Source of the DNA: a virus
DNA length: 20,061 bases
Reading direction: 5' to 3' (one strand)
IMG/VR virus record: IMGVR_UViG_3300025127_000385
Coordinates: 1 to 20,061 of that record
Below, piece after piece: positions 4,501-20,061 of the stretch; within the stretch, counting starts at the first letter, position 1, and each line of letters starts with the position of its first letter. The notes beneath the pieces were generated by a model. The model did no database searches and was not told the origin of the DNA. It saw only the letters and a program-made list of their open reading frames with translations. The translations under genes were made by a program, and so were the position numbers.

Positions 4501-5284
4501 AACAATTACTTCTAATTCTCATGGTAGGTCTCAAGGTGATTATGTAAATTTTGTAGCTGTAGCTGGTGGTGGTGCTAGTGGTGTTTATCAAATAAATAAT
4601 GGCTCAGTTACAACAAATACTTTTCAAATTACATCTACAACATCAGCAACGATATCTTCTTCAGCTTGTACTTTTGCTTTTGTTAACACAATAGATCAGT
4701 TAATACCAGCAGGTACTTTTTGGAACGATTATGCTACTGATGGAAATTTTGATGGTCCTACTGTAGATGATGTATCAGCTTCTTTATCAGTTAACGTTAC
4801 ACAAAGTGATCCAGCTTCGGCAGCAGCAGATACTTATTCAGGGTTTCAAACATTTGCAAATGGAACTTATAAAGGTAGGGGATTTAAATTTAGAGCAACT
4901 TTAGAATCAGAATCAATAGCACATAATATTTCAGTTCAACAGCTAGGGTTTATTGCTAAATTTGAATCACGAACAGAAAGAAGGTATGTACATACAGACG
5001 GCACGATAAAAACAGAGCCAATTAATTCTGGAACAGCTTCTTCTGGAAAAAATGTTACCTTTGCTAACCCATTTTTCACTGGTACGGCTACTTTAGGTGG
5101 AGTAAATAACTTTCCCCCTTCTATTGGTATAACAATAGTAGGTGCTGCAACTGGAGATTATTTTGTTTTATCTAATGTAACAAGAACAGGCTTTAATATA
5201 AAGATTAAAAATGATTCGCAAAACCCTGTATTTATAGATAAACAATTTACGTTTCAAGCTGTCGGTTATGGTAAAGGAGTGTAA
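1523..5284 (+). CDS. Central tail-tip / host-specificity protein gpJ-like
   Basis: This 1253-residue protein matches lambda gpJ in position, length and motifs. The start MSKIIRGAKGGG leads into a tip-attachment core (SLSEGEIEGF-like segment near residue 35, and PSMILLDLLINKRYGLGDHI near residue 335, a hallmark of the family). Two fibronectin type III-like domains follow at about 695-890. After them comes a fibre-like segment near 975-1050 built around SHGRSQGDYVNF, a motif common in phage fibres. The extreme C-terminus (1050-1253) is beta-rich and is where receptor binding would be expected. A strong Shine-Dalgarno GGAGG at 1510-1514 lies eight bases before the ATG, the best site in the tail cluster and in keeping with a major structural product. 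A charged insert near residues 150-250 is family-typical. Confidence 0.93.
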   Translation: MSKIIRGAKGGGRSRDPVRADDNLNSKEFATVQDLLSEGEIEGFATPSKRNIARNNSNYNKACLADIFLNNTSVLNVSSDLTDTEFTNKLNNLQETDFSFQDVTFKPRFGTSNQSAVGNVDNNVFTKQSTSITPTHSNPIKKTGTPGPVDSPDISPNKDAVEVTITFAAFQKFENNGDISGTEVTLKIQRQIDGGNFEDRVTDTIKGRSADPYSKEYRINLPSTYNQAKIRVLRDTDDSNLDEIQDTFSVTRMEEISDDVRTYPNCAYSTLRLSSEQFSSVPQRAFRIRGIKVKIPGAGANGTNAPTVDAATGRIKYDDDYIFNGTMGAAVWCTCPSMILLDLLINKRYGLGDHIAPDQSTDAKMYSNIDLFSYVQASRYANALVTDTVDGTSEARFSCNASIQGTAEAYTLINELAGIMRAFPIWQAGTITIAQDSPTNASYLFSLSNVTEAGFSYSGSSLRQRHSVVSVSYFNMDSREIDYEIYGDDDSDPVQAARIAKYGIVKKTVKAFGCTSRKQARRLAKAIVFGEEQESETVTFTTSIDAGAIVRPGSVVAVADPVRGSQRRSGRIKTATTTSITVDNVKDLDTFLGGDQKCSVLLPDGKSEEVATTSVNATTGVITLASALSQTPAQHSIWMLSSNDLKPQFYRVISVEEQENTNFVITGLTYIDGKYNNIELGEALPPRNISLLNALKAPPSGLGAEEKIVVINNLAVSKIIVSWQVRTGVSQYLVQYRFNQANWVSETVFRPDIEILNSQAGTYEIRVYSFNASLSLSNSASSITFDAKGKTEPPGAVQNLSYEPLTNKLVRLRWDLATDPDVLHGGRVYIRHSSRTDGSGTFQNSVDLIPAIAGNSTIADVPALEGEYILKFQDDGGRFSLSATSVIVDLPDLIDEETIVIRREDLLTQPFCTSESPDVTTTCTSVKTNVSVVGDGLQLTNPATNLIGTYDFAQVIDLGAVYSLNLQRTIQAIGFALGGLTITAIYVQSGTTITITSNSHGRSQGDYVNFVAVAGGGASGVYQINNGSVTTNTFQITSTTSATISSSACTFAFVNTIDQLIPAGTFWNDYATDGNFDGPTVDDVSASLSVNVTQSDPASAAADTYSGFQTFANGTYKGRGFKFRATLESESIAHNISVQQLGFIAKFESRTERRYVHTDGTIKTEPINSGTASSGKNVTFANPFFTGTATLGGVNNFPPSIGITIVGAATGDYFVLSNVTRTGFNIKIKNDSQNPVFIDKQFTFQAVGYGKGV

Positions 5285-6517: not shown

Positions 6518-6859
6518 ATGGCAATCCAACCTGGCACATATAATTTTACGCTACAACGTAGATCAGATCATACGATTCCTCTGTTGTTTAAAGATGGAAA
6601 TGATGCAGCAATAAATTTAACAAACTATACAGTAGAAGCACAAGTTTGGGAAGAAACACGCATCACAAAATATGCAGATTTTACAACAACATATACTGAT
6701 CGTTCTGCTGGTTCTGTGTCAATATCGTTGACGGATACACAAACAGCTACATTTACTCCTGATATTTTAAAATATGATGTTCTATTAACTGATCCTTCGG
6801 GGTCGAAAGAATATTATTTAGAAGGTACTATATTTGTAAGTGAAGGATACACGACATGA
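6518..6859 (+). CDS. Small tail / fibre-attachment protein (BppU-like)
   Basis: A 113-residue beta-rich protein. The opening PGTYNFTLQRRSDHTIPLLF and the pattern of short strands followed by YDVLLTDPSGSKEYYLEGTI are typical of small phage proteins encoded just before fibres, which resemble the N-terminal domain of baseplate upper proteins or immunoglobulin-like adaptors. It lies two bases after the collar fibre and its stop overlaps the start of the giant fibre (ATGA at 6856), which points to coupled translation in a fixed ratio. A role as adaptor between tail tip and fibre is inference from position and size; no enzymatic motif is visible. Confidence 0.72.
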   Translation: MAIQPGTYNFTLQRRSDHTIPLLFKDGNDAAINLTNYTVEAQVWEETRITKYADFTTTYTDRSAGSVSISLTDTQTATFTPDILKYDVLLTDPSGSKEYYLEGTIFVSEGYTT

Positions 6860-9800
6860 CTTCAGTTAATGTTACAACTACAAAAAATACAGTTACAGTA
6901 AACGGAGAAACCCGTGTTGTCACTGTAAAAACAGCAGGTCCGCAGGGAACTTTTACTGATGGAAACTTAGGTGATGTAACAGTATCAAACAATGGTACAA
7001 ATATTGTTGTTAATGCTGGAGCGATTGATAATGCAAATATAGCTAGTAATGCAGCTATATCTTTAAGCAAGTTAGCAACTGGAGCGTTACCAACAGCAAT
7101 TACTGTCACCAGTGCAAACATATCTGACCTTAGTATTGTCAATGCCGATATAAACGCCAGTGCTGCTATTGCAGGTACAAAAATTTCTCCCAACTTTGGA
7201 TCGCAAAATATAGTTACAACAGGAACTATTGCTTCTGATAATATAACTATTGCTGGTGCTACACCTACATTAACTTTTACAGATAATGACGCTAATCCAG
7301 ATTATGAAATAAGAAATCATAGTGGGTATTTTGCAATTAGAGATGCAACTTCAAGTGTAAATAAAATAAGAGTTAATCCAGATGGACATATTGATATTCA
7401 TGCGTTTTTAGAATGTTTAGATAGCCTTTCTGTAACAGGAAATATAACTGTTTCTGGAACAGTTGACGGAAGAGATGTTGCGACAGATGGTACAAAACTT
7501 GATGGAATAGAAACAGCAGCTACCGCAGATCAAACAGCAGCAGAGATAAAAACATTATTAGATAGCAATGGTATTGTTAACTCAAACGTAGATGCAAGTG
7601 CGGCAATAGCTGGTACAAAGATTTCTCCTGACTTTGGATCGCAAAATATAACTACAAGTGGAGAAATAGAAATAACAGGAAGCACTACTGTTTTAAAGTT
7701 TACAGAAAATGATAACAATCCTGATTTTGGTTTTTTAGGCAATGGTGGATTATTAAGAGTACAGGATCTTACCAATACTTCTAACATTATGATTTTTGGG
7801 CCAAATAATGTCCAATGTGTTAAAAATTTAGATTTAGACAATGGTCTTGATGTATCGGGCAATATCACAGTAACAGGAACAGTTGACGGAGTTGATATTG
7901 CTGCACTTAATACAACTGTTGGAAACTTAAGTTTATCTGGCAGTGTTTTAGCTGACGGCACAACTGCAACGACCCAATCAGCAAGTGATAACTCTACAAA
8001 AGTTGCGACAACAGCTTATACAGATACAGCAGTAGCAAACCTAGTTGACTCTGCACCTGGTACGTTAAATACACTGAACGAACTGGCATCAGCTTTAGGT
8101 GATGATCCAAACTTTGCGACAACAGTTACTAACTCAATAGCAACCAAAATGCCTTTAGCTGGTGGTCAGTTTACAGGAAATATTACTTTTTCTGGTACTC
8201 AAACAGTAGATGGTAGAGATTTATCTGTTGATGGTAGTAAATTAGATGGTATCGAGAGTGGAGCTACAGCCGACCAGACAGCTAGTGATATAAAAACTTT
8301 ATTTAATAGTAGTGGACTTGTTAACGCACAGATTGATGCAAGTGCAGCAATAGCAGGTACGAAAATATCTCCGAATTTTGGATCGCAGAATATAGTTACA
8401 ACAGGTCAAGTATTTTCAAGTTATGCAACTCTTACTGCTGTAAACCCAACACTTACATTTTCCGATTCAGACAATAACCCTGATTATACAATCAATGTAA
8501 ATAGTGGCATATTAAAAATAACGGATTCAACTAATAGTGCCGATAGATTCGTTGTAAACACAGATGGTCATGTTGATATAACTGGCAACCTAGATGTTGG
8601 TGCAGGGCTAGACGTAACAGGTAATATCACTGGAACGACAGACGCAACCATAAACGGAGTTACTGTTGGTAAAGGTGCTAGTTCTGTCGCTAATAATACT
8701 GCTCTTGGAGTTTCTGCTTTAGCTGCAAATACTTCTGGTAATGACAACCTTGCAGTAGGTAGTCTTGCATTAGAAGATAATACGTCTGGTGGTCATAACG
8801 TAGCTTTAGGTAGAAAAGCACTTAACAGTAATACGACCCAATCAAACAACACTGCTATAGGTAGTCATGCTTTAAATGTGGCAACAGCATCAAACAATAC
8901 AGCAGTAGGATATGCTTCCTTATTATCAAACACAACTGGAACAGACAATACAGCCACAGGTGCTAATGCTCTAGATGCTAATACTACTGGAAATTACAAT
9001 TCAGCTTTCGGAACACACGCTTTAAGCGCAAACGGTGGGGGCCAGAGAAATACAGCTTTAGGTAGAGGATCTTTAGCATCAAACACAACTGGAAGTTATA
9101 ATGTTGGAATTGGTTATGCAGCTTTAAGTAACCAAACAACATCAACTAGTAATACTGCAGTTGGCGATTATGCCGCAAGATTAATGACAACTGGAATTGA
9201 TAATACTGCAGTTGGTAGGTACGCTTTATATAATAATACGACTGGTTATTTTAATACTGCAGTCGGTGTAAGTTCTTTAGCTTCAACCTCAACTGGAATT
9301 GATAATACTGCAGTTGGTAGGTACGCTTTATATTCAAACACTACTTCAAGTAATAATACTGCTATAGGTTCAAGTGCATTAACCTCAAACACAACTGGAG
9401 CAGGTAACATAGCTGTAGGTTCTCAAGCATTAGATGCAAATACTACTGCAAATAATAATATTGGTATTGGTTATTTCTCATTGTCGAATAATACTACTGG
9501 TACTCGAAATATAGGAATAGGAACATCAGCTTTACTTGGAAACACAACTGCCGATAATAACACTGCTGTTGGCTATAACGCTTTACAAGAAAACACAACT
9601 GCCGATAATAATACTGCTTTTGGCTATCAAGCTTTGTACGCCAATACAACTGGAACGCAAAACGTGGCGGTAGGTGCTTTAGCGTTAGATGCTAATACTA
9701 CTGGAGGTTCTAATACTGCTGTTGGTGAAGAGTGCTTAACAGCAAACACAACAGGTAGTGGAAACGTTGGTGTTGGTGAACGCACCTTAAGAGATAATAC

Positions 9801-12800
9801 TACTGGGGCACAAAGCAGTGCTGTCGGTCAGTTTGCTTTAAGAGCAAACACTACTGGCTATAACAATAATGCTTTAGGTTCTTCTTCTTTGATGAACAAT
9901 ACTACTGGCCATTCAAACTCTGCTTTTGGTACAGCTGCTTTAAGTCAAAATACAACTGCAAATAATAATGCAGCTTTTGGAAGATCAACTTTAGCAAATA
10001 ACACAACTGGAACTAGAAATACTGCAATAGGAGCTATGGCTTTAGATGCAAATACTACTACAAGTGATAATACAGCAGTAGGTTATGAGTCCTTAACAGC
10101 AAACACAACTGGAAGTCTAAATACTGCCGTAGGTTCTTTGGCTATGGATGCCTCTACAACTGCATCTAACTGTACTGCTATTGGTGCTAGTTCTTTAAGT
10201 GCAAACACAACTGGAGCAGATAACACAGTAGTCGGTACAGAAGCAGCCAAGACTAATACCACAGGGGCTAATATTACTGCTATTGGTAGATCTGCCTTAT
10301 TTGCAAATACAACTGGAGCAAAAAATGTAGCAGTTGGTAGTCAAGCATTAAGAACGAACACTACAGCAAGTAATAATACAGCAGTAGGATATGACGCTTT
10401 AGGAGACAATACTACAGGAAGTGCCAACGTAGCGATAGGTACTGATTCCTTAGATGCTAATAGTACTGGAAGTAATAACGTAGGTATAGGTAATGGTTCT
10501 TTGGGAGCTAATACCACAGCAAGTAATAATACAGGAGTTGGGTATTTTGCTCTTCATGCAAACACAACTGGAGTAGAAAACGTAGCTGTTGGAACAAATT
10601 GTCTTGATGCTAATACTACTGGATTTAATAATACTGCTGTAGGTCATCATTCTTTAGGAGCAAATACAACTGCTTCTTATCACACCGCTTTCGGTTCTTT
10701 TGCTCTTAAAGCTAATACATCAGGAGTAGGTAATACAGCCGTAGGATCTCATTCTCTTGATGCAAATACTACTGGTGGATCAAATGCTGCTTTTGGTAGA
10801 AATGCATTAACTAGCAGCACCAGTGGAAGTTTTAATACAGGTTTAGGTGCTTTTGCTCTTCAGCTTAATAGCACTGCTTCTAATAACACAGCAGTAGGCT
10901 ATAACTCATTAGGTGCAAACACAACTGGAACGCATAACACTGCTGTTGGTAGTGGCTGTCTAGATGCAAGTACCACAGGAGACTACAACGCTGCTGTCGG
11001 AACTAATACTTTAACAAACAGCACAACTGGATCTTATAACGCAGCACTTGGTCACGGAACCTTGCGAGACAACACTTCTGGTTATTCTAACGTAGCTGTA
11101 GGTTCAGCAGCTTGCCAAGAAAACGAAACTGGATTTTATAACGTAGCAATCGGAACTAATGCTTTACAAAGTAATATTAGTCAAAGTTATAACGTAGCAG
11201 TTGGAAATTTTGCATTAACAAATAATATTACAAATTTCAACACAGCCGTTGGCTTTAATGCTTCAAAAGAAAATACTACAGGAAATGGTAATGTAGCTGT
11301 TGGTCAAGGAGCAGCCCAGGAAACAACTACAGGTAGTGACAATGTTGCAGTAGGTCGTCTAGCTTTAAATTCAAATACTACCGCTTCAAACAATACAGCA
11401 GTTGGTAAGTCAGCTTTAGAAGCAAATACAACTGGAACTAACAACGTAGCTCTAGGAGCAAATGCTTTAGATGCCAATACTACAGCTTCTAATAACACTG
11501 CTGTTGGATATAACTCTTTAGGCGCAACTACAACTGGAACTAAAAATACAGCTATTGGACAAGCAGCTTTAGGAGCAAATACAACTGGAGCAGACAATGT
11601 TGCTGTTGGGCAAGCAGCTTTAGACGCTAATACAACTGCATCTAACAACGTAGCAGTTGGTAAAGCAGCTTTAGGAGCAAACACTACTGGAACACAGAAC
11701 GTAGCAGTAGGTACTTATGCATTAGATGCTAATACTACGGCCAGTAATAACACTGCGATTGGTTATGAATCTTTAACAACAAATATTACTGGTATTTCAA
11801 ACGTAGCTATTGGTGCTACAACACTAAAACAAAATAATAGTGGACATAGAAATATAGCTATTGGTCATAATTCTATGGAGCTTACTCAGAGTGGTTCTGA
11901 TAATATAGCGATTGGTCATGACTCTCTAAAGGCAAATACTACTTCCAGTAACAACGTAGCAATAGGAAGATCAGCATTAAACCAAAATACTGCAGCAAAT
12001 AACACTGCGATAGGAAGATCAGCTTTAGCTTTAAACACAACTGGTACTAATAATGTAGCTGTTGGAAGAAACGCTTTAGATGCAAGTACTACAGCTTCAT
12101 ACAATACTGCTATTGGTTCAACTGCTCTTACGACTAATACAACAGGAGCAAATAACACTGCCTTGGGTGCAAACAGTTTAGCTTTAAACACAACTGCCAG
12201 CAATAATACTGGTCTTGGATTTCAAACATTACAAGATAACTCAACTGGTGCATCTAATACGGCAGTTGGAGCTAACAGTATAACCAATAACACCACAGGA
12301 AATTACAATACAGGTGTAGGTGTAGATTCTTTAAAAGCAAATACAACGGCAAGCAATAACACAGCCGTTGGTTATGACTCTTTAACGCTAAACACAACTG
12401 GAACGCAGAACGTAGCAGTTGGTTCTCTTGCTTTAGATGCCAACACCACTGCTTCAAATAATATTGCTATTGGTTATTTATCCCTTACTGCAAACACAAC
12501 TGGTACGCAAAATGTGGGAGTGGGAGTAAATACAATAGCAGATAATACCACTGGAGATTTTAATACTGCTGTAGGTCATCAAGCTCTTAAAAACAACGAA
12601 ACCGCAGATAACAATACTGCTGTTGGTACTAATTCCTTATTAGCAAACACAACTGGAACAGATAATACGGCTGTAGGTGCTAATAGTTTAGATTCAAACA
12701 CTACAGGACAAGCCAATAATGCTATTGGTAGAAATGCTCTTGGAGTAAATACTACAGGTAGTTATAACCAGGCTATAGGTCGTGAATGTTTAGATGCAAA

Positions 12801-14313
12801 TACTTCAGGAGAGATGAATGTTGGTGTTGGTCATGCTTCTTTAAGTGACAACACGACAGGTAGTAGAAATGTTGCTATTGGTTTTGATGCTTTAAATGAT
12901 AATACTACTTCAAGTGATAATACTGCTGTTGGACATAACGCATTAAAATTAAACACTGCTACCAACAATACTGCGTTAGGTAGATCAGCATTAGCAGTAA
13001 ACACAACTGGAGCACAGAACGTAGCTGTTGGTACTTTTGCTTTAGACGCTAATACTACGGCATCTAACAACACTGGTGTTGGTTATCAAGCTCTTACAAC
13101 AAATACAACTGGAACACGTAATGTTGCTCTTGGTTATAACTCATTAAAACTTAATGAAACAGCAAATGACAACACTGCTGTTGGTTATCTAGCTTTATTA
13201 TTAAACACAACTGGATCTCAGAATACAGTTCTGGGAGCTTATGCCCTAGATGCTAATACAACGGCTGGTAATAACACTGCGGTAGGTTATGCTGCTTTAT
13301 CTGCAAATACTACAGCTAACTATAATACGGCAGTTGGTACAAATTCATTATTAACAAACACAACTGGACATTCAAATACTGCTATCGGTTTTAACTCTTT
13401 AGATGCAAGTACAACTAGTTACCAAAACACTGTTGTAGGTAACAGTGCTGGGAGTTCAATTACAACTGCCAACTCTAGCACTGCTATTGGTGCTCAAGCT
13501 ATGCAAAATACCACGACAGCGAGTAATAATACTGCGGTTGGTAGGAGTGCTTTAAAAAACAATACAACTGGTACTGAAAACACTGTAGTAGGTACTTATT
13601 CTACGCAAACTAATACTACAGGAAACTACAACACTGCTTTAGGTTATTACTCATTAAATGCAAACACAACTGGGACAGAAAATACTGCGGTTGGTAGGAG
13701 TGCTTTAAAACACAATACAACTGGTTACAGTAACACAGCCGTAGGTAGTGGAGCGGGGTCTGCAAGTGGAAACACGGGTGGTTTATTTAATACTTTTATA
13801 GGAAGAGGTGCTGGTAGTAGTAGCGCTGCTTCTGGTGGTGTATTTATTGGTAATAACGCTGGTAATACTGCAACAACAGGTAATCAAGTAATTTGTATTG
13901 GACACAATAGCCAACCTTCTAGTGCAACAGCTTCTCAGGAAATAACACTTGGAAGCAGCAGTACTGCAACCCTAAGATGTAATGTACAAACCATATCTTC
14001 CTTATCAGATGCAAGAGATAAGACAAACGTAATCGACCTACCAGAAGGTTTAGATTTCATATCCAAACTAAGACCTGTCAAATTTGAATGGGCTACCAGA
14101 GATGGTAATGGTAAAGATGGATCGTTTGAACATGGCTTTATTGCTCAGGATTTACAGGCTGCACAAAAGGAAAATGATGCTGATTATTTAAACATGGTTA
14201 TGGATGAAAACCCTGACAGGTTAGAAGCTAGTTATGGTAAACTCGTACCAATCCTTGTCAAAGCGATCCAAGAGCTTACAATGGAAGTAAACAAACTTAA
14301 ATCAAATGGCTGA
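6856..14313 (+). CDS. Giant tail fibre: YadA-head-like 17-residue repeats and C-terminal peptidase S74 chaperone
   Basis: This 2485-residue protein has three parts. Residues 1-612 hold an N-terminal attachment segment and three diverged copies of a fibre module beginning at N96, N242 and N490, plus a SAPGTLNTLNELASALGDDP segment common in phage fibres. Residues 614-2292 are 99 consecutive repeats of consensus N-T/V-A-V/I-G-x-x-A/S-L-x-x-N-T-T-G-x-x, the YadA head/Hep_Hag type that forms a trimeric left-handed beta-roll. Residues 2293-2383 are degenerate Gly/Ser-rich repeats. The final 102 residues are a peptidase-S74 intramolecular chaperone: SDARDKTNV with the predicted nucleophile S2384, then LRPVKFEW, HGFIAQDLQ and a C-terminal helix LVPILVKAIQELTMEVNKL. 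S74 domains drive trimer folding and then cleave themselves off at that serine. It is probably the main long host-recognition fibre. The gene has no frame break despite the repeats. Confidence 0.93.
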   Translation: MTSVNVTTTKNTVTVNGETRVVTVKTAGPQGTFTDGNLGDVTVSNNGTNIVVNAGAIDNANIASNAAISLSKLATGALPTAITVTSANISDLSIVNADINASAAIAGTKISPNFGSQNIVTTGTIASDNITIAGATPTLTFTDNDANPDYEIRNHSGYFAIRDATSSVNKIRVNPDGHIDIHAFLECLDSLSVTGNITVSGTVDGRDVATDGTKLDGIETAATADQTAAEIKTLLDSNGIVNSNVDASAAIAGTKISPDFGSQNITTSGEIEITGSTTVLKFTENDNNPDFGFLGNGGLLRVQDLTNTSNIMIFGPNNVQCVKNLDLDNGLDVSGNITVTGTVDGVDIAALNTTVGNLSLSGSVLADGTTATTQSASDNSTKVATTAYTDTAVANLVDSAPGTLNTLNELASALGDDPNFATTVTNSIATKMPLAGGQFTGNITFSGTQTVDGRDLSVDGSKLDGIESGATADQTASDIKTLFNSSGLVNAQIDASAAIAGTKISPNFGSQNIVTTGQVFSSYATLTAVNPTLTFSDSDNNPDYTINVNSGILKITDSTNSADRFVVNTDGHVDITGNLDVGAGLDVTGNITGTTDATINGVTVGKGASSVANNTALGVSALAANTSGNDNLAVGSLALEDNTSGGHNVALGRKALNSNTTQSNNTAIGSHALNVATASNNTAVGYASLLSNTTGTDNTATGANALDANTTGNYNSAFGTHALSANGGGQRNTALGRGSLASNTTGSYNVGIGYAALSNQTTSTSNTAVGDYAARLMTTGIDNTAVGRYALYNNTTGYFNTAVGVSSLASTSTGIDNTAVGRYALYSNTTSSNNTAIGSSALTSNTTGAGNIAVGSQALDANTTANNNIGIGYFSLSNNTTGTRNIGIGTSALLGNTTADNNTAVGYNALQENTTADNNTAFGYQALYANTTGTQNVAVGALALDANTTGGSNTAVGEECLTANTTGSGNVGVGERTLRDNTTGAQSSAVGQFALRANTTGYNNNALGSSSLMNNTTGHSNSAFGTAALSQNTTANNNAAFGRSTLANNTTGTRNTAIGAMALDANTTTSDNTAVGYESLTANTTGSLNTAVGSLAMDASTTASNCTAIGASSLSANTTGADNTVVGTEAAKTNTTGANITAIGRSALFANTTGAKNVAVGSQALRTNTTASNNTAVGYDALGDNTTGSANVAIGTDSLDANSTGSNNVGIGNGSLGANTTASNNTGVGYFALHANTTGVENVAVGTNCLDANTTGFNNTAVGHHSLGANTTASYHTAFGSFALKANTSGVGNTAVGSHSLDANTTGGSNAAFGRNALTSSTSGSFNTGLGAFALQLNSTASNNTAVGYNSLGANTTGTHNTAVGSGCLDASTTGDYNAAVGTNTLTNSTTGSYNAALGHGTLRDNTSGYSNVAVGSAACQENETGFYNVAIGTNALQSNISQSYNVAVGNFALTNNITNFNTAVGFNASKENTTGNGNVAVGQGAAQETTTGSDNVAVGRLALNSNTTASNNTAVGKSALEANTTGTNNVALGANALDANTTASNNTAVGYNSLGATTTGTKNTAIGQAALGANTTGADNVAVGQAALDANTTASNNVAVGKAALGANTTGTQNVAVGTYALDANTTASNNTAIGYESLTTNITGISNVAIGATTLKQNNSGHRNIAIGHNSMELTQSGSDNIAIGHDSLKANTTSSNNVAIGRSALNQNTAANNTAIGRSALALNTTGTNNVAVGRNALDASTTASYNTAIGSTALTTNTTGANNTALGANSLALNTTASNNTGLGFQTLQDNSTGASNTAVGANSITNNTTGNYNTGVGVDSLKANTTASNNTAVGYDSLTLNTTGTQNVAVGSLALDANTTASNNIAIGYLSLTANTTGTQNVGVGVNTIADNTTGDFNTAVGHQALKNNETADNNTAVGTNSLLANTTGTDNTAVGANSLDSNTTGQANNAIGRNALGVNTTGSYNQAIGRECLDANTSGEMNVGVGHASLSDNTTGSRNVAIGFDALNDNTTSSDNTAVGHNALKLNTATNNTALGRSALAVNTTGAQNVAVGTFALDANTTASNNTGVGYQALTTNTTGTRNVALGYNSLKLNETANDNTAVGYLALLLNTTGSQNTVLGAYALDANTTAGNNTAVGYAALSANTTANYNTAVGTNSLLTNTTGHSNTAIGFNSLDASTTSYQNTVVGNSAGSSITTANSSTAIGAQAMQNTTTASNNTAVGRSALKNNTTGTENTVVGTYSTQTNTTGNYNTALGYYSLNANTTGTENTAVGRSALKHNTTGYSNTAVGSGAGSASGNTGGLFNTFIGRGAGSSSAASGGVFIGNNAGNTATTGNQVICIGHNSQPSSATASQEITLGSSSTATLRCNVQTISSLSDARDKTNVIDLPEGLDFISKLRPVKFEWATRDGNGKDGSFEHGFIAQDLQAAQKENDADYLNMVMDENPDRLEASYGKLVPILVKAIQELTMEVNKLKSNG
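7141..8640 (+). repeat. Three diverged copies of an N-terminal fibre module
   Basis: A segment with the core ASAAIAGTKISPNFGSQNI starts at bases 7141, 7579 and 8323 (residues N96, N242, N490). Each copy continues into a strand-rich part (LTFTDNDANPDY; LKFTENDNNPDF; LTFSDSDNNPDY) and a VTGNI segment. A linking part, TVDGRDxxxDGxKLDGIE followed by ATADQTA, occurs twice, before copies 2 and 3. Copies 1 and 2 are 146 residues apart; copies 2 and 3 are 248 apart because about 100 residues with the TLNTLNELASALGDD segment lie between them. The DNA of the core is also similar (GGATCGCA is shared by all three), so they arose by duplication within the gene. Confidence 0.85.
8695..13731 (+). repeat. 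Array of 99 coding repeats, 51 bp (17 residues) each
   Basis: I segmented the protein by hand. Repeat 1 begins at N614 (base 8695) and repeat 99 ends at 13731. Ninety-five units are 17 residues and four (units 4, 50, 65, 84) are 16, which gives 1679 residues or 5037 bases and matches the coordinates exactly. Glycine at position 5 is present in all 99 units and asparagine at position 1 in 94. The DNA is much less conserved than the protein because synonymous codons vary freely (GCA/GCT/GCG/GCC for the same Ala), so most units are old and held by selection on the protein. Some neighbours are nearly identical in DNA and look recently copied. Confidence 0.95.
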
Positions 14314-18745: not shown

Positions 18746-18992
18746 GATGTTTTCTTTCAAAATCTTTAACTAACATAGAGCTAGTCTTATCAATCTCATA
18801 ATTAAATTTTAGAATTGCCGTGCGAATATGTTCTGAAACCCATCCACCTTGTTTAGAAACAACTTCTGCTTTGTTGCGGTCATTAATAAAAATATAATGG
18901 TCATAACCTTTCAGTTCCACATCTAAAAGATTTTTTTCTAAGTCTTTACGTCTTATCTCTTTTAGTCGTCTTAGCTTTATTGAGTCACTCAT
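18708..18992 (-). CDS. Conserved-looking small protein, unknown function
   Basis: A 94-residue charged protein with an Arg/Lys-rich N-terminus (KLRRLKEIRRKDLEKNLL), a short beta part (YDHYIFINDRNKAEVV) and a helical end. The strand-then-helices layout (GGWVSEHIRTAILKFNYEI) weakly resembles the neighbouring upstream protein, and both may be small DNA-binding proteins, but no motif proves it. The start overlaps the end of the upstream gene by eight bases, so it is likely co-translated. The 3' end overlaps the plus-strand gene convergently. Confidence 0.66.
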   Translation of the reverse strand: MSDSIKLRRLKEIRRKDLEKNLLDVELKGYDHYIFINDRNKAEVVSKQGGWVSEHIRTAILKFNYEIDKTSSMLVKDFERKHLNEYEKTFSKDA

Positions 18993-19275
18993 TTTTCTTT
19001 TTAATTGAATTAAGAATCCTAGAAAGTGCTCTACCTTGTAGTCGGTTTTGAATGGCTCTGTTCCAGTTTTCTTGGTCTTTTCTCAATGCTTCATCATACA
19101 CTTCTTTATCAATCTTGTCTTGTAAAAAATTATAAACAACATCTCTTATCCAAGAAGTAGGTTTGATTTTTAATTTCGTGCGAATGTATTCATCGAATAG
19201 CTCTCCTCTATTTATATCTATAAGAACGTGGTAATACTTTTTGTTTCCGTGAGGTTTCTTGCCAGCTTCAGCCAT
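18985..19275 (-). CDS. Small protein with ribbon-helix-helix-like layout, candidate DNA-binding
   Basis: A 96-residue basic protein. After a Lys/Gly-rich start comes a strand (KYYHVLIDI), a helix (GELFDEYIRTKLKI) and a second helix introduced by KPTSWIRDVVYNFLQDKI, the order and spacing of ribbon-helix-helix (CopG/Arc-type) DNA-binding domains. The C-terminal half is a long charged helix (NWNRAIQNRLQGRALSRILN). I recall similar small proteins in cyanophages, all unnamed. It lies about 180 bases from the TGGGACAA half-site array, on the same strand, so it is one candidate to bind there. That link is inference. Confidence 0.68.
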   Translation of the reverse strand: MAEAGKKPHGNKKYYHVLIDINRGELFDEYIRTKLKIKPTSWIRDVVYNFLQDKIDKEVYDEALRKDQENWNRAIQNRLQGRALSRILNSIKKKNE

Positions 19276-19289
19276 AAATATCTTTTTGA

Positions 19290-19318
19290 TTTATACTATC
19301 ACATTCTCATTGTATTAA
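19290..19318 (-). promoter_or_regulatory. Candidate sigma-70 promoter before the RHH-like gene
   Basis: On the minus strand, TTAATA (19318-19313) and TATAAA (19295-19290) are 17 bases apart and match the -35 and -10 boxes in four and five of six positions. Transcription would begin near 19283, leaving a leader of under 10 bases before the ATG at 19275, with no Shine-Dalgarno visible. The -35 overlaps the stop codon of the 28-residue gene. This is a weak call in AT-rich DNA. Confidence 0.3.
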
Positions 19319-19401
19319 CTTTTTGTTTTCCAGGCTTTAATTAAGCGTTCCAATTCAGCAATTCGTTGTTTTGCAGCTTCAATTCTTTGTTGAGTTGTCA
19401 T
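19315..19401 (-). CDS. Micro-protein (28 residues), single amphipathic helix
   Basis: The minus strand encodes MTTQQRIEAAKQRIAELERL followed by IKAWKTKS and TAA. The whole chain is one amphipathic helix with heptad-like hydrophobic spacing (I, A, I, L, L, I, W). From memory, near-identical short proteins starting MT.QQRIE.A..RI.EL occur in marine cyanophages, which is why I call it despite its length. No Shine-Dalgarno is visible upstream. It is the first gene downstream of the half-site array and may be read from a promoter in that region. Function is unknown; a coiled-coil partner of a larger protein is plausible. Confidence 0.55.
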   Translation of the reverse strand: MTTQQRIEAAKQRIAELERLIKAWKTKS

Positions 19402-19603
19402 AGATTCTGATTGTAATAATGTTAATTAGTGTTTCCCCTGGGGAGAGTGGCTGAAATTGTCCCATTCTCTATAATCCCGTTCCAAGACTACGGTTTGCTA
19501 TGGGACAAAGGTATGGGACAAGTAAAGTTGTCCTACGCTCCAATAGTAATGGGACAATCTATTTTGTCTCATACAGTTGTCCCACTGAAATCTATTGGTA
19601 CGA
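19402..19603. promoter_or_regulatory. Intergenic control region / possible origin with mirrored TGGGACAA half-sites
   Basis: This 202-base gap holds seven 8-bp half-sites (an eighth, weaker one lies inside the next gene). They are 19457-19464 (minus), 19501-19508 and 19514-19521 (plus), 19528-19535 (minus, TTGTCCTA), 19550-19557 (plus), 19564-19571 (minus, TTGTCTCA) and 19577-19584 (minus). The six central sites are arranged plus-plus-minus then plus-minus-minus, with gaps of 5, 6, 14, 6 and 5 bases, so the block 19501-19584 is a perfect dyad in spacing. Each half holds a 22-bp palindrome (arms of 8, centre of 6). A TATAAT lies at 19470-19475 without a good -35, and TCCCCTGGGGA at 19434-19444 is a separate short palindrome. 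It is likely the binding site of a dimeric regulator or replication initiator. Confidence 0.75.
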
Positions 19604-20061
19604 CTACGATTCCTCCAATGAGACAGGATATGTAAACGCCCCGCGAGCGAGGACTGCTCTATAAGACTTATTAGAATTATCATCTTCTATAAGTTCAATA
19701 AGACCTTTTTTGGTTAATCTTTGGAACGACTTTCTTATCGCAGCATCTTTACCATCAACCATTGGGTCGTGAATCATTTGATTTATGGTATAAGTTTCTG
19801 GGTGAATTTTTCTTAGCTTTTGAAGAACTTTATCTTGAACAGTAGTAGGAGAACCAGAATCATCAGATACTTCAGGAGTGTAATCAGCGATAGCAAAGGT
19901 GAGATCATCTTTCATCTTCATTATCATTTGAGTTCCCATTCTTCCAGACCTAGATTTTTCGATAGTAATAAATCTGCTATTACGACCTACTTTATTGATT
20001 TGTTCTTGGGTCGGTTTAGATAATTTCCAAGTTTCATCAACAGCATCTCTGATAGCTGATG
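19604..20061 (-). CDS. C-terminal part of a probable RepA/DnaB-type ATPase with winged-helix tail
   Basis: The frame stays open from the right edge to TAG at 19606-19604; the N-terminus lies outside the window. An ATG at 19939 is internal, because in-frame coding sequence continues upstream of it. The visible 151 residues contain RFITIEKSRSGRMGTQMIMK, resembling the last strands of RecA-like helicase domains (usually K-x-R-x-G). An acidic linker (ADYTPEVSDDSGSP) follows, then a helix-turn-helix or winged-helix domain (VQDKVLQKLRKIHPETYTIN; AAIRKSFQRLTKKGLIELIE). The best fit is a replication helicase or helicase loader, with a DNA-binding tail that may contact the adjacent half-sites. The Walker motifs are not in view, so the ATPase call is inference. 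Confidence 0.5.
   Translation of the reverse strand, partial: SAIRDAVDETWKLSKPTQEQINKVGRNSRFITIEKSRSGRMGTQMIMKMKDDLTFAIADYTPEVSDDSGSPTTVQDKVLQKLRKIHPETYTINQMIHDPMVDGKDAAIRKSFQRLTKKGLIELIEDDNSNKSYRAVLARGAFTYPVSLEES

Follow-up and report, generated by a model that had tools for sequence, protein, structure and literature searches.

The window, by which we mean the whole 20,061-nucleotide stretch analyzed here (IMG/VR record IMGVR_UViG_3300025127_000385), is phage DNA. It has tail genes upstream and shows DNA similarity to Prochlorococcus and Synechococcus phages, on which basis the host is probably a marine picocyanobacterium. A 2485-residue protein, consisting mostly of NTTG..NTAVG-type repeats, is encoded at 6856–14313 beside the tail-fibre genes. 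The end of the window holds the 3′ part of a replication protein gene, together with eight half-sites arranged with mirror symmetry within 170 bp. The features, in window coordinates, are as follows.

18985–19275, minus strand: small downstream gene, ribbon-helix-helix-like by eye, with no consistent association with the array
19435–19451: GC-rich outer arm of the opposite side, minus-strand reading CACTCTCCCCAGG, with high conservation among close relatives
19457–19464, minus strand: outer half-site TGGGACAA, 36 bp from the block, position and orientation kept in close relatives
19501–19508, plus strand: half-site TGGGACAA
19514–19521, plus strand: half-site TGGGACAA
19528–19535, minus strand: half-site TAGGACAA
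19536–19549: central spacer, 14 bp
19550–19557, plus strand: half-site TGGGACAA
19564–19571, minus strand: half-site TGAGACAA
19577–19584, minus strand: half-site TGGGACAA
19604–20059, minus strand: 3′ part of the gene for the PrimPol / PriCT-2 / AAA_25 (RepA-type) helicase / winged-helix replication protein, truncated where the window ends
19619–19626, plus strand: outer half-site TGAGACAG, within the last codons of the PrimPol gene (stop codon 19604–19606)
19639–19651: GC-rich outer arm, CTCGCTCGCGGGG on the minus strand, with mirror arms in relatives
19640–19879, minus strand: C-terminal winged-helix domain (mean pLDDT of 84 for a model of the window's own domain)
19706–19747, minus strand: recognition helix DAAIRKSFQRLTKK, in which the Arg codon at 19733–19735 is helix position 3, co-changing with half-site bases 1–2

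The coordinates, orientations and gaps of the array are exactly those given in the initial annotation. The six-site block has gaps of 5, 6, 14, 6 and 5 between its 8-mers and retains the GACAA core in all six sites, while the outliers at 19457–19464 (minus) and 19619–19626 (plus, TGAGACAG) stand 36 and 34 bp from the block. All five exact copies of TGGGACAA in the window fall within the array, and 2000 dinucleotide shuffles of the window never placed more than two in 200 bp; with up to one mismatch, seven copies were observed per 200 bp against a shuffle maximum of five. The array has a higher GC content than the genome and contains no AT-rich unwinding element; AT-rich stretches (0.72–0.80 AT) occur only beyond its two ends. 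No Rfam match to a structured RNA was found up to E = 1, and a literature search on the half-site word returned nothing relevant. Between the array and the downstream gene lies a small ORF, MTTQQRIEAAKQRIAELERLIKAWKTKS (19315–19401, minus strand), which is present in many close relatives.

Full-length relatives of the replication protein have about 710 residues (for example L014:8324–10456) with PriCT_2 and AAA_25 domains, and a Prim-Pol domain matched above the cut-off in a clade B member. No Toprim primase was recognized, Prim-Pol and PriCT-2 matches being found in its place. The helicase part of an AlphaFold model matches RSF1010 RepA. The model of the C-terminal domain comprises three helices and a two-stranded wing, with helix 3 as the recognition helix, and aligns to winged helices with a VIA-align Z of about 10; a Foldseek search with this small domain returned generic winged helices only, none of them below E 0.001. 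Thus, primase, helicase and C-terminal winged helix are combined in one polypeptide. We found no isolated phage with a close relative of this protein, the resemblance there being only ~27% identity over the helicase domain, and plasmid relatives share only 23–31% identity. A search of host genomes returned one MAG contig, L190, which is probably phage and has a related array. In clade B, a gene for a family-A DNA polymerase lies close downstream.

We compared the array across relatives of the locus. A first search gave 72 loci and wider scans added several hundred, which were deduplicated to 229 unique 3′ regions; an early broad pattern scan had matched much unrelated DNA, at the chance level expected. 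The sample was gathered by PrimPol homology, which in part builds in the pairing of array and PrimPol. De novo word finding scored at least 5 in 89.5% of the 229 3′ regions, versus 0.9% of shuffled sequences and 4.3% of upstream coding sequences. Automatic site calling recovered the full mirror order -++-+--+ at 103 loci. Close relatives with enough sequence share, with few exceptions, the order - ++- +-- + with gaps of 34, 6, 8, 14, 8, 6 and 36 between 7-mers. Across 41 close sequences, all distinct, none of the 32 columns of the GACA core varies, and mean entropy is 0.064 in the sites versus 0.409 in the spacers. The array is therefore kept beside the same gene in related phages, and the expectation that its 8-mer would not be equally frequent elsewhere was borne out in whole contigs of close relatives (19–43 kb), where the array holds the exact copies and 0–2 lie outside. 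These outside copies are scattered and single, so no second array was seen as a possible origin. In the five longest contigs, cumulative GC skew does not turn clearly where the array lies, and its minima are mostly near the late/early gene junction.

The relatives also reveal elements absent from the initial annotation. The GC-rich arms beyond the outer sites tend to mirror each other, and TGGAACGGGAT-like elements occur within the 34–37 bp spacers. A second conserved element, TTGGAACGGGAT-like, is found in the same orientation in both 36-bp spacers of relatives such as L223–L232.

In more distant lineages the number of sites is often lower, as in - + - + - + with gaps of 37, 19, 18, 19 and 37, and the gap series are commonly palindromic. 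These lineages use other words, such as TGCGACA, CTGGACA and GGGGACA, in a layout that is usually mirrored even where the gene contains the whole array. In 121 of 204 loci the PrimPol stop codon lies within the array; in the other 83 it lies beyond, and the array is then entirely in the PrimPol reading frame. A single word in clade B is translated in different frames as AMRQ, NATG, CRI and VAL, which points to selection on the DNA and not to an accident of coding.

Spacing is constrained as well. The centre spacers of relatives measure 4, 13–15, 24–25, 37, 45–46, 58 or 69 bp, a series with a period of ~10.85 bp (R of 0.91 on seven merged modes, scan-corrected P of 0.0036), and one inner gap alternates between 8–9 and 18–21 bp. 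These steps of about a helical turn suggest a need for both modules to be on one side of the DNA. Two variants were noted: L044 has an extra central half-site (TGTCCCAcgacTGTCCCA) 3′ of position 10453, apparently a small tandem duplication, and L422 has, 3′ of position 4621, oppositely oriented blocks of sites at 3-bp gaps (44, 3, 3, 3, 31, 3, 3 and 44), nearer to a two-block layout.

The words vary between lineages in step with the wing of the protein. We tested this co-evolution at the 190 of 229 loci with a clear word and enough protein, using a phylogeny of the protein with the wing removed and Fitch reconstruction, which is approximate. Of the 24 branches on which base 1 changes, 17 also show a change at helix residue 3, which ranks first of 597 protein columns (nominal P of 2.5e-16, the next column 2.3e-6). 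For bases 1–2 taken jointly it changes on 17 of 28 branches (P of 1.4e-14, next 5.5e-7), and for base 2 alone it falls outside the eight best columns. These hypergeometric P values treat branches as interchangeable, hence we rely on rank against the other 596 columns. A mutual-information ranking made without the tree put helix residue 3 at the top for base 1 and in second place for base 2; for base 3 this ranking is confounded by kinship.

The contingency counts give the pairing in detail. At helix residue 3, Arg accompanies TG at bases 1–2 in 112 cases and TA in nine, Lys accompanies GG (23), His CT (10), Thr CT (four), Gln CT, TT or GT (six), Gly GT (three) and Ser TG (six). At helix residue 7, Gln accompanies G at base 3 (169) and Glu C or T (12). 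In terms of whole words, Arg at position 3 is found with TGGGACA and sometimes TAGGACA, Lys mostly with GGGGACA, and His, Gln, Thr and some Gly with xTGGACA, while Glu at position 7 is found with TGCGACA. Exceptions are the nine loci with Arg and A at base 2, Ser with TG, some Gly with AGGACA words and a few Arg with CT, GT, CC or AC. The link between residue 7 and base 3 involves only two changes on the tree, essentially one clade, and we therefore do not claim it statistically. Words and DNA-reading helix change together across hundreds of relatives, which makes for a readable recognition code. Computation thus supports a match between the array's word and the winged helix that ends the neighbouring replication protein and, since the word co-evolves with its recognition helix, it is almost certainly PrimPol's own wing that reads the array.

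We propose that the array is the phage's iteron-type replication origin, formed of two head-to-head initiator modules, and put the probability of this reading at roughly 85%. As in iterons, several copies of a short word occupy one compact region near an initiator gene. The initial annotation had offered an operator, an initiator origin or a recombinase site; the initiator origin is the option that stands, the other two being disfavoured. Conservation, position and the co-evolution of helix and word argue strongly for such an origin, probably bound by the C-terminal domain of the ATPase, as had been suggested. The winged-helix fold, the RepA-like helicase part, the regular centre spacing and the clade B polymerase gene also favour it; the GC skew, the absence of an AT-rich element within the array and the result for base 2 alone count against it. 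Several molecules of the replication protein would bind the array through their wings, and the two mirror modules, each an outer site, ~36 bp and then ++- or +--, would seat two helicase assemblies head to head on one face of the DNA. The helicases may then separate the strands for initial priming by the PrimPol domains, with bidirectional replication as a possible outcome.

Binding alone does not imply initiation, and the co-evolution, which indicates binding by the PrimPol wing, would also suit an array that serves autoregulation or copy control, as an operator or incompatibility site, with initiation elsewhere. We consider this unlikely: the array sits at the gene's 3′ end and not at its promoter, it is wholly intragenic in 83 of 204 loci, and the single, scattered words elsewhere in the contigs offered no second array as an alternative origin. 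Very improbable is a repressor operator for the small ribbon-helix-helix-like product of 18985–19275, an idea prompted by the adjacent gene and the symmetric half-sites. The word tracks the PrimPol helix, the array sits inside the PrimPol frame in 83 of 204 loci, and a detectable relative of the small gene is missing from the 2 kb downstream in 116 of 197.

We give scarcely any weight to a cosB-like DNA packaging site, which prophages such as L557 bring to mind by their similar word and spacing; the array is tied to PrimPol and is not adjacent to terminase, and in the relative G005 the terminase large gene (21243–22499) and the array (34611–34780) are ~12 kb apart. Equally faint is the case for a site of recombination or dimer resolution, dif-like or telomere-resolvase-like, as the initial annotation had considered from the 22-bp palindromic units with a 6-bp centre, because there are 6–8 sites over 170 bp in conserved order and not two arms, the centre varies from 4 to 69 bp, and no recombinase was recognized among the tested genes of these partly annotated genomes. 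A dif/Xer site, in which two 11-bp arms and a 6–8 bp centre make up the whole, does not describe the array.

The proposed origin would work like the SaPI and P4 origins, by analogy, while being built on different enzymes. P4 alpha has an SF3 helicase, and P4 has a distant second region (crr), whereas no second array was seen here. Like the present protein, P4 alpha joins primase, helicase and winged helix in one polypeptide, and its winged helix binds the origin repeats, but its primase is of the Toprim type (PMC4234260), in place of the AEP PrimPol and RepA-type helicase found here. SaPI origins, located immediately 3′ of rep, are recognized by the Rep C-terminal domain (PMC7581432). In both SaPI Rep/ori and the SCCmec Cch2 origin, as here, short repeats directly follow the initiator-helicase gene (PMC7581432). 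There, the helicase C-terminal domain binds the origin and two hexamers have been proposed (PMC7581432); co-evolution points to a comparable C-terminal reading in the phages. Unlike these systems, the phages have an initiator that joins an AEP primase with a RepA/RecA-type helicase, and their array partly or wholly occupies the coding sequence as a conserved two-module mirror with outlying sites ~36 bp away.

Other systems share parts of this design. pRN1 ORF904 is likewise a PrimPol-helicase with a C-terminal winged helix and an origin 3′ of its gene, but it has an SF3 helicase and a 100-nt stem-loop origin without iterons, and specific binding was undetected there (PMC4234260). RSF1010 has in common with the phages a hexameric helicase of the RepA type (the structure match), a primase and probably iteron recognition, functions which it divides among three proteins, RepA, RepB′ and RepC, the last binding the oriV iterons (PMC4234260), in contrast to the one protein here. 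Phage NrS-1 and cyanophage S-2L also encode AEP primase-polymerases, with PriCT-2, as here, in S-2L (PMC8065100), although the C-terminal part of the S-2L protein resembles papillomavirus-type helicases (PMC8065100) and not the RepA type.

Similar arrays were also observed in other elements. Enterobacterial lambdoid prophages carry a TGGGACA array immediately 5′ of a terminase small-subunit-like gene (L557:3640–3790, L567 at ~1085–1230 and the E. coli HS chromosome within 2080404–2080904), laid out as TGTCCCATGTCCCA followed by TGGGACA-6-TGGGACA-9-TGTCCCA-6-TGTCCCA and more. This array is a candidate cosB-like site whose word and spacing are probably convergent. In addition, phages whose replication proteins appear VirE/D5-like by eye have TGGGACA arrays directly 3′ of the gene (L077:3168–3420, L094 at ~9662–9850 and L127 at ~1061–1300), candidates for a similar origin design with a different helicase.

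Finally, we found no description of an origin for this PrimPol-helicase protein family in the literature searched. At slightly less than even odds, and so tentatively, these phages may represent a large, apparently undescribed replicon class. The two mirrored modules of its origin would be spaced by helical turns, could sit wholly within the initiator gene and would load the fused PrimPol-helicase head to head as two hexamers. Origin specificity would obey a simple code, in which helix residue 3 goes with bases 1–2 and residue 7 with base 3, giving many natural replicons that are orthogonal to one another. In hundreds of contigs from uncultured aquatic phages, the array shows where the origin probably lies. 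It also supplies naturally occurring pairs of protein and DNA on which the recognition code can be tested directly, and the loading of a fused primase-helicase at a symmetric origin becomes testable.
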